Of a stretch of 48,353 nucleotides of DNA, positions 7,949 to 46,701 are shown in pieces. Source of the DNA: an uncultured Porphyromonadaceae bacterium (GTDB lineage Bacteria; Bacteroidota; Bacteroidia; Bacteroidales; Muribaculaceae); the NCBI GenBank assembly GCA_947175215.1, contig CAMWLR010000011.1, positions 1 through 48,353 on the forward strand, written 5' to 3'. The position numbers were made by a program, and so were the translations under genes. Every line of letters begins with the position of its first letter. The first letter of the stretch is position 1. Under the pieces are notes generated by a model that saw nothing but the letters and a program-made list of their open reading frames with translations, had not been told where the DNA came from and searched no databases.

Positions 7949-8381
7949 GAGACAGCCGGACGGTCCGTCGCTGACGGGTTATTGACAACGCCGTCTGAGG
8001 AAAGTCCGGGCAACACAGAGCGCCATACTTCTTAACGGGAAGCCGCGGGTGACCGTGGAGTAACGTGACAGAAAACAACCGCCCGGCGGCACGTCCGTCA
8101 GGTAAGGGTGAAAAGGCGGGGTAAGAGCCCACCGGGCATCACCGCAAGATGATGTGCCGCACGTCTTATGGGTTGCAAGGTCAAGTAAACCGGCATTTAA
8201 GGGTGGCTCGCCCGTTGCCGGAGGGTAGACTGCTACGGGAGAAGGTAAAGCCATCTCCGATTAGCCGCGATGGTGACATCGGGCATAGATAAATGACGGA
8301 CCGGACGCGGCAGGTCGGTCAGCCTCAGGGTTGGCCGAAACCCACGCTCCGACAGAACCCGGCTTACAGTCCGGCTGCCTC
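7949..8381 (+). ncRNA. rnpB: RNase P RNA (bacterial class A)
   Basis: Catalytic RNA that matures the 5' ends of tRNAs with RnpA. Ends were set by helix P1: GAGaCAGCCGGAC at 7949-7961 pairs with GTCCGGCTGcCTC at 8369-8381. Conserved blocks are present: GAGGAAAGTCCGGGC (CR-I, 5' strand of P4), ACAGAAAACAACCGCC, GGTAAGGGTGAAAAGG...GTAAGAGCCCACCG (J11/12 region), AGATAAATGACGGA and ACAGAACCCGGCTTA (CR-V, 3' strand of P4). About 433 nt is a normal size for Bacteroidetes. Confidence 0.97.
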
Positions 8382-8391
8382 ATCCATACAA

Positions 8392-44776: not shown

Positions 44777-45637
44777 TCAGAAGATATTCTGGCGGTCATC
44801 ACCCGATGATGATGCCGACTGAGTATCGAGTATCTGTTTCACACATTTAATAATCACGGCAGCATTCTTGCGTGCCCCCTCCTCAGAGGTATGGGTGCCG
44901 TCTGTCGTGAGCCTGCGCGTCACCATCTCTGCCGCACTGTTGACAGGGCAGAGCAGGTCTTGACGGATGACAGATGCGCCCGAGCGGGCCGCTACCTCAT
45001 CAATCATCGTGCTGACGTCGGCAAGCATCTTGTCAGAGATCTTGACCGACTGCATCGGAGTCATCACAATCAGTCGGGCATCGGGGAAACGTGCCGAAAG
45101 AATCAGCAGGTCATATCTCACGGCCTCGGGGAGTGATAATACTTTACCCGGCGGTAACGACAGCAGTTCACCGATATCTCTACCAAGAGCCTCTGATGCA
45201 GAGAGCGAGAACTCCTCAGGGCGGAATTGCGGGAACCATGCGTCATTAGTTCCCGCCGCTATCATTATCAGATCGGGCGATTGCTGACTCCTGCTGTCGA
45301 CGGCCTCAATCAGTCTTATAATCTGATTATAAATCACATTATCATCAGTTATTATCTCGCTATAATGAGCAGGGTTACGGGTAGTGGATGACGTGTGGCT
45401 CCAGGTAGCGCCACTGCGGGCATAACTCACGACATCTGATGAATCAAACTCACGGGCAAACCAGTAGTTCCACCCCCGTGGCGACGAACAATCGTCACCC
45501 CCGATCCAGGTATTCGAGTCACCCAACAGAACAATATGAGCAGGCATCCCCGGCGCGTCACCATCCGCGTCAGTACCAAGCATTGACATCGACACGCAAA
45601 GTGTCATCACCACGTATGCAAATAATCTTTTCAGCAC
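44777..45637 (-). CDS. SGNH/GDSL hydrolase
   Basis: 286 aa with a signal peptide (RLFAYVVMTLCVSMSMLG). Block I GDSNTW (nucleophile Ser41), block III AAGTND, block V DGTHTSEEG (Asp/His). In this context it is probably an O-acetyltransferase or esterase acting with the MBOAT partner. The GTG at 45637 was chosen as start: an in-frame TTG at 45658 would lie in the promoter -7 box (45656-45663), and the nearby ATG is out of frame. The leader would be only about 12 nt. Confidence 0.86.
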   Translation of the reverse strand: MLKRLFAYVVMTLCVSMSMLGTDADGDAPGMPAHIVLLGDSNTWIGGDDCSSPRGWNYWFAREFDSSDVVSYARSGATWSHTSSTTRNPAHYSEIITDDNVIYNQIIRLIEAVDSRSQQSPDLIMIAAGTNDAWFPQFRPEEFSLSASEALGRDIGELLSLPPGKVLSLPEAVRYDLLILSARFPDARLIVMTPMQSVKISDKMLADVSTMIDEVAARSGASVIRQDLLCPVNSAAEMVTRRLTTDGTHTSEEGARKNAAVIIKCVKQILDTQSASSSGDDRQNIF

Positions 45638-45655: not shown

Positions 45656-45663
45656 CAAAGTTA
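45656..45663 (-). promoter_or_regulatory. -7 box of the SGNH-MBOAT-DHHW operon
   Basis: TAACTTTG on the minus strand, 18 bp upstream of the GTG start. A CTTG lies only 17 bp upstream (45684-45681), so the -33 is weak. This box fixes the start choice of the first gene. Confidence 0.65.
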
Positions 45664-45829
45664 CCTAATTTCCAATAATCCAAGTAATTTTTCCCATATA
45701 ATATTCATTAATATTCCACATCATCTCGATTATATTCTTATCTCTATGTTCATCATGCCATAATTTGATCTGTGCCCCCTATAATTACTTTATAATCAGG
45801 TATGTGAGTCGATATGATAAGTTATGCAC

Positions 45830-45894
45830 AAAAAAAATTGATTGTCTCCCGACAACCAATCTTAGTTAACCTTAAATCTAATACCATGAAAAAC
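45830..45894 (-). ncRNA. Putative small RNA of about 65 nt
   Basis: Defined by signals, not homology. Promoter: ATTG (45931-45928), 19-bp spacer, TACCTTTG (45908-45901) on the minus strand, start expected near 45894. End: a 10-bp stem ATTGGTTGTC / GACAATCAAT with one G-U pair and a GGGA loop (45860-45837), running straight into eight Ts. The body is A/T-rich (GGTATTAGATTTAAGGTTAA). An ORF in it reads through the terminator, so it is not supported as coding. It could instead be an attenuated far-upstream leader of the SGNH operon. Confidence 0.55.
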
Positions 45895-45900
45895 ACGTTG

Positions 45901-45931
45901 CAAAGGTAGTGGTATTTCGTGATTCTGCAAT
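45901..45931 (-). promoter_or_regulatory. Promoter of the putative small RNA
   Basis: ATTG, 19-bp spacer, TACCTTTG on the minus strand; one mismatch at -33. Confidence 0.6.
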
Positions 45932-46104
45932 AGTTTTGATGCAGAAATTTACTTCGTTTTAACTTTATTTTACACAATTTGGTCAACTTATCGCCAAAAT
46001 TCAATCTTTTTGCTTGCATCTCAGACAACTCTCCGCCACTTTGCCACAGCAGAATCCAAATTAAAAAAGAGATCTCCCACTCCCTTATTAACATTTGTTA
46101 GGTT

Positions 46105-46141: not shown

Positions 46142-46458
46142 AATTCTACGGTTCTGCAAATTCAGAATCTAAGTTCCTGTCAAATAGTGTGGCTTGACCA
46201 CAAAGCGTATTCTTGCTCTATCCACGGTTGCAAAATCGCCAAATATTGTAGACACCGGATATAGCAGTCTTAGATACGCTCATGTTGTATCGTTTCCTGA
46301 CCCTATCGCGGGCCGGGCCGATATAGCGTGGGATCGGACTGCCTTATCGTGTCATGGCATTTGGCGATGCCCGCAACCGGATATGGCAGAAGCCTGTCCT
46401 GCGCTTTCTTTATAATCGCTTTTATCGACGCCGGGGACACGGGGTCAACTATATAATA
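46142..46458 (+). other. Long leader (about 317 nt) before the HTH gene, function unknown
   Basis: From the expected start of the 46105 promoter to the HTH start codon. I recognise no known RNA. A small hairpin TTCTG-CAAATT-CAGAA lies near its 5' end. Open frames in it (for example from 46194 and 46354) show no family features. Confidence 0.35.
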
Positions 46459-46701
46459 ATGAGTGACATCCATATCGGGCAGTTGATTCAGCAAGAACTC
46501 AAGCATCAGGAACGCACCCCCACATGGCTCGCCCGCAAAATAAACTGCGAGCGCTCAAACATATATTATATCTTCAGTCAGAGGAGTATCAACTCTGAGT
46601 TGTTGCTGCGGTTATCTAAAGCGCTTGGCGTAAACTTCTTTAAGTATTATGAGCAACAACTTGACGAGAACAGGTCATCCACCCAAAAAGATAATCATTG
46701 A
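46459..46701 (+). CDS. Small helix-turn-helix (XRE-like) protein
   Basis: 80 aa from the ATG at 46459: MSDIHIGQLIQQELKHQER then TWLARKINCERSNIYYIFSQRSI, a classic HTH, and LLLRLSKALGVNFFKYY. Compact XRE proteins of this form are widespread in Bacteroidales, usually without assigned targets. An in-frame ATG at 46354 would add 35 residues of arginine-rich sequence outside the domain and is unlikely. The C-terminus is polar (DENRSSTQKDNH). Confidence 0.85.
   Translation: MSDIHIGQLIQQELKHQERTPTWLARKINCERSNIYYIFSQRSINSELLLRLSKALGVNFFKYYEQQLDENRSSTQKDNH

Follow-up and report, generated by a model that had tools for sequence, protein, structure and literature searches.

A FopS-Family Small RNA Gene of an Uncultured Muribaculaceae Bacterium and Its Conserved Upstream Element

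The window (the whole stretch of DNA analyzed here, 48,353 nt) comes from an uncultured member of the Muribaculaceae and carries on its minus strand what is, judged from the sequence, a real small-RNA gene belonging to the FopS family. This call was based on a full-length Rfam match, five copies in the host genome and order-wide conservation. The sRNA family itself has already been named; what appears to be new is its reach to all sampled Muribaculaceae and a conserved element upstream of its genes. It is highly probable that the RNA is a trans-acting sRNA, transcribed from a sigma-ABfr promoter, which most likely keeps mRNAs for outer-membrane transporters from being translated, probably in response to stress on the envelope or from bile.

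FopS was described as 14 paralogous sRNAs in Bacteroides thetaiotaomicron, which are about 65–70 nt long, induced by bile salts and bound to the RRM protein RbpB (PMC11697453). The 5′ end of these RNAs pairs with the start region of susC mRNA and represses its translation, and RbpB counteracts this; the seed role of R1/R1′ was shown in the same species (PMC11697453). The paper reported the family from Bacteroidaceae, with 12–15 copies per genome in named species, and from one phage (PMC11697453).

The FopS Gene and Its Locus

A cmscan search against Rfam found a full-length match to RF04319 (BTncRNA_FopS; "FopS, family of paralogous sRNAs") at 45896..45828 on the minus strand, covering model positions 1–71. 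The score was 79.5 bits against a gathering cut-off of 56 bits, with an E-value of 3.6e-10 over the window. The following features were located:

45828–45896, minus strand: FopS-family small RNA of about 67 nt (cmscan, RF04319)
45866–45896, minus strand: 5′ part of the RNA, GUGUUUUUCAUGGUAUUAGAUUUAAGGUUAA, counterpart of the R1/R1′ seed (conservation and fold)
45830–45863, minus strand: intrinsic terminator, a stem-loop at 45863–45834 (loop GGGA) and then eight T (terminator scan and fold)
45901–45908, minus strand: −7 box TACCTTTG of the sigma-ABfr type (read from the sequence)
45928–45931, minus strand: −33 box ATTG, with a 19-nt spacer to the −7 box (read from the sequence)
45959–45973, minus strand: tandem element GTAAAATAAAGTTAA, candidate regulator-binding site, 65 nt upstream of the −7 box
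45656–45663, minus strand: −7 box TAACTTTG belonging to the SGNH operon downstream, distinct from that of the sRNA (read from the sequence)
44777–45634, minus strand: GDSL/SGNH hydrolase gene, first of the SGNH-MBOAT-DHHW operon (Pfam PF13472/PF00657)
46456–46701, plus strand: small helix-turn-helix protein, divergent neighbor of FopS (weak HigA-like match)

The promoter of the window gene is the canonical sigma-ABfr form, ATTG-N19-TACCTTTG, rather than the PM2 type, and 107 of 116 FopS-seed instances, counting those on phage contigs, have a TAnnTTTG box. An earlier, sequence-only reading of this DNA had described a −33/−7 promoter and a stem closing on a GGGA loop, with a run of eight T. All of these were confirmed, and they lie on the minus strand; the reading itself had named no strand. 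It had also predicted an RNA of ~65 nt, and the modelled ends, with the 5′ end at 45896, give about 67 nt. The 5′ part was mostly unpaired in the predicted fold, which was only moderately better than those of shuffled sequences (z −2.5). The terminator scan found one such site where shuffles gave 1.3 by chance in a region of this size, and thus the hairpin by itself is not compelling.

That reading was also about right on the gap without genes and on how far away the SGNH operon lies. The SGNH hydrolase gene, whose GTG start codon at 45634 was chosen by inference, is a neighbor and lies outside the sRNA. Identity with GibS (RF04182) was ruled out by a score of 37.2 bits against a cut-off of 115, and no support was seen for a small protein encoded by the sRNA stretch, two of the three sense frames containing stops and the third being open only across the U-tract. 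The RNase P RNA gene (RF00010) was found at window positions 7952–8382, as expected.

Copies, Conservation, and Distribution

The host genome contained five FopS copies, four of them above the RF04319 cut-off. The window copy had the highest score of the five, and its seed, promoter, terminator and upstream element were all intact. Among 31 aligned copies from several Bacteroidales families and phage contigs, the first 31 nt at the 5′ end were nearly invariant, and the hairpin varied with compensation: in 6 of 8 consensus pairs across the family, both sides had changed and the pair was kept. The sequence-only reading had made its small-RNA gene depend on conservation of the stretch between promoter and stem, and this stretch proved nearly invariant across the Bacteroidales copies. 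Together with the full-length RF04319 match, this order-wide conservation supports the stand-alone sRNA gene that had been proposed. The description of the gene as unannotated did not hold, the family being already named and studied as FopS (RF04319).

When the first 41 nt were searched for exact matches, the window subtype, in which CTAAGATTGG follows the seed, turned up at 55 sites in other genomes. These were mostly Muribaculaceae and included Duncaniella muris, Heminiphilus faecis, Muribaculum caecicola and Paramuribaculum. FopS was found in all 149 sampled Muribaculaceae genomes, in 141 of them above the cut-off, and the covariance search in Bacteroidales that had been recommended detected it in 67 of 295 sampled genomes. 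In some genomes, two or three FopS-like copies stood in tandem within about 1.2 kb (L034, L009).

FopS-like genes with the same seed but other hairpins were present on eight viral contigs, and another was found on the induced Bacteroides phage BX-TP2. These phage-borne genes fit the published suggestion of a possible spread of the FopS family by phages (PMC11697453). The joining of the FopS seed to other terminators on phage contigs (L099–L106, L265) may represent phage-borne mimics of a host regulator. One viral-contig gene was located directly behind a tRNA-Arg gene (L099).

Two other explanations of the window copy were considered. One is that the RNA serves the SGNH-MBOAT-DHHW operon downstream as its attenuator, an alternative already offered by the sequence-only reading, or as its 5′ leader; the two do lie on the same strand, with the terminator about 170–200 nt upstream of the operon. 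However, four other genomes (L040–L043) keep SGNH (about 41–65% identity) and MBOAT genes together while their fetched flanks lack a FopS seed, and FopS loci fetched elsewhere had no SGNH match. The operon also has its own −7 box at 45663–45656, which suggests that it may be transcribed independently. Since this synteny comparison, which the earlier reading had called for, showed that the operon and FopS are each conserved without the other, we rejected the attenuator as highly improbable. It is also conceivable that the window copy is a functionless relic, kept by duplication or mobile elements, while the other four copies do the work. The presence of five copies in one genome fits such a history, and the genes on phage contigs and on BX-TP2 indicate that copies can move. 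However, the best-scoring and fully intact copy of the five is a poor candidate for a relic, as is a subtype that recurs exactly at so many places elsewhere, and we regard this explanation as quite unlikely.

FopS and RbpB

RRM_1, the Pfam family that includes RbpB, was detected in 196 of the 295 sampled Bacteroidales genomes. Within the Muribaculaceae it was found in 2 of 149 genomes and in none of the 110 high-quality ones. No RRM_1 protein was detected in the host genome (92% complete) by the Pfam model search; as this search rests on one Pfam model, a strongly divergent RRM could be missed. A tally of the two tables showed that 27 of the 67 FopS-bearing genomes of the order sample had no RRM_1 match, and FopS and RRM_1 showed no positive association across that sample (odds ratio 0.68, p 0.19). 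The published coupling of FopS and RbpB rests on experiments in B. thetaiotaomicron. The universal occurrence of FopS in a family where RRM_1 is almost absent suggests that the RNA is independent of RbpB, and through the Muribaculaceae the RbpB dependence of FopS becomes directly testable.

The Upstream Element and a Possible Regulon

Aligning the FopS upstream regions on the −7 box revealed a tandem element, GTNAAAT-N3-GTTAA. For 53 of 78 instances from the family, its best match stood 63–65 nt ahead of the −7 box (binomial p about 9e-67), and it stood at the same position for 22 of 28 instances from other families (p about 6e-31); both values are too small owing to sequence relatedness, above all the former. 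The element was observed upstream of one FopS gene each of Bacteroides finegoldii and Parabacteroides distasonis. In the window it showed 0 mismatches to GTNAAATNNNGTTAA, and 45959–45973 was the only composite site of this kind, against 0 in 100 shuffles. Some copies, shifted by about 10 nt, suggest that further half-sites may follow at a 10-bp period.

A palindrome, ATGTT-N4-AACAT, covered the −33 box in 14 of the 78 family instances and 19 of the 28 others. It was present at two other host copies (L003 on C34, L004 on C15) and absent from the window copy. Its restriction to a subset of FopS promoters (also L006–L033) points to two promoter classes within one RNA family. In the text of the FopS paper, as far as it was accessible, there was no mention of a palindrome, inverted repeat or operator (PMC11697453). 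No description of the tandem element, the −33 palindrome or the reach of FopS without RRM_1 was found in the searchable literature, nor did a search for such an RNA together with Muribaculaceae return anything relevant.

The composite of tandem element, fixed spacing and −7 box occurred 52 times in 14 genomes of the host genus, compared with 0 for the reversed pattern and 6 for a spacing 20 nt longer. By our own reading of the downstream sequence, 15 of these composites belonged to FopS, 11 preceded a gene for an RND efflux periplasmic adaptor, 6 preceded a pdxJ-like gene (L179, L183, L200, L202, L203, L236) and the rest were scattered. The host genome had two strict composite sites, that of the window FopS and that of a complete RND operon (adaptor, permease and outer-membrane channel). 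In front of this operon (L131 6023–7207, C4), the tandem GTTAA element stands at the FopS spacing. The RND promoters (L131; L176–L198, L239, L248) also bear a palindrome of their own, of the ATATGATAAATATCATA type, over the −33 region. The helix-turn-helix protein next to the window FopS has homologues in two genomes besides its own (L197, L237), each downstream of a FopS-type composite promoter; 44% identity was measured to one protein so placed.

Seven RND adaptor genes from Parabacteroides, Phocaeicola, Bacteroides and Prevotella, possibly of non-orthologous pumps, showed no such element in front of them, and support for its link with RND pumps is therefore confined to the host genus. RND pumps of B. 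thetaiotaomicron are bile-salt induced (PMC11078008). As bile salts induce FopS too, a shared regulator responding to bile or envelope stress is the natural hypothesis, and one such regulator may act on both FopS and the RND pump of the host. We tentatively propose, with the balance still somewhat against it, that FopS of Muribaculaceae works without RbpB or any RRM_1 protein and belongs to a stress regulon with the RND pump, whose regulator binds the tandem element ~64 nt upstream of the −7 box. In the host genus, RND efflux may be switched together with the repression of transporters. The upstream element offers a concrete handle on the regulator of bile induction that the original FopS study postulated.

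Proposed Function and Targets

This analysis established that the gene belongs to the family, that it has a promoter, a terminator, a conserved seed and the upstream element, and that it is one of several copies. We infer that the window copy is expressed and works as FopS does in B. thetaiotaomicron, without an RbpB-type protein. Transcription would start from the sigma-ABfr promoter and end at the gene's own terminator, leaving the conserved 5′ seed exposed as a single strand. The seed would most likely base-pair over the start-codon region of mRNAs for outer-membrane transporters, SusC-like and similar, and the pairing would block their translation, probably when bile or damage to the envelope puts the cell under stress. 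Two results count against this reading: the outcome of the duplex prediction given next, and the failure to detect RbpB in the host genome.

Target prediction was carried out in the host genome with a simple duplex score, which has little power. The start regions of 11 SusC/TonB genes were not enriched as a class against 313 background genes. One of the 11 (L114, −17.9 kcal/mol) was among the best 5% of the background, which is about the chance level, and shuffled seeds did about as well as the real one; this SusC gene is a candidate target only. A near-perfect antisense site (≤3 mismatches to a 21-mer) was found in the host genome only within the five fopS genes themselves.

The lack of SusC enrichment could mean that the main targets of FopS in Muribaculaceae are other envelope genes and that SusC mRNAs are not the main ones. 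It is in keeping with this that only six host genes passed the SusC model cut-off, whereas B. thetaiotaomicron has dozens of PULs (PMC11697453). However, the absence of enrichment comes from the low-power duplex score, and conserved target types are what one would expect from a window seed that hardly differs from the B. thetaiotaomicron FopS consensus. A shift of the main targets away from SusC therefore seems rather unlikely to us, and outer-membrane transporter mRNAs, SusC-like and similar, remain the targets that we consider most likely.

Comparison with Known Systems

OmrA/OmrB, Qrr and LhrC likewise consist of several paralogous RNAs acting on shared targets, a comparison drawn in the FopS study (PMC11697453). 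They occur in other phyla than the window FopS. We know of no sequence relation between any of them and FopS. GibS (RF04182) has the 5′ R1 seed in common with the window RNA; however, it is longer, with a second seed R2 and a PM2 promoter, and the window RNA lacks that part (PMC7366714). The closest counterpart is FopS of B. thetaiotaomicron. The window gene differs from it in its Muribaculaceae host, in having 5 copies instead of 12–15, and in that no RRM_1 (RbpB-type) protein was found. It resembles it in the full-length model match, the 5′ seed, the size, the single-stranded 5′ part followed by a terminator, the sigma-ABfr promoter and the occurrence of several copies per genome.
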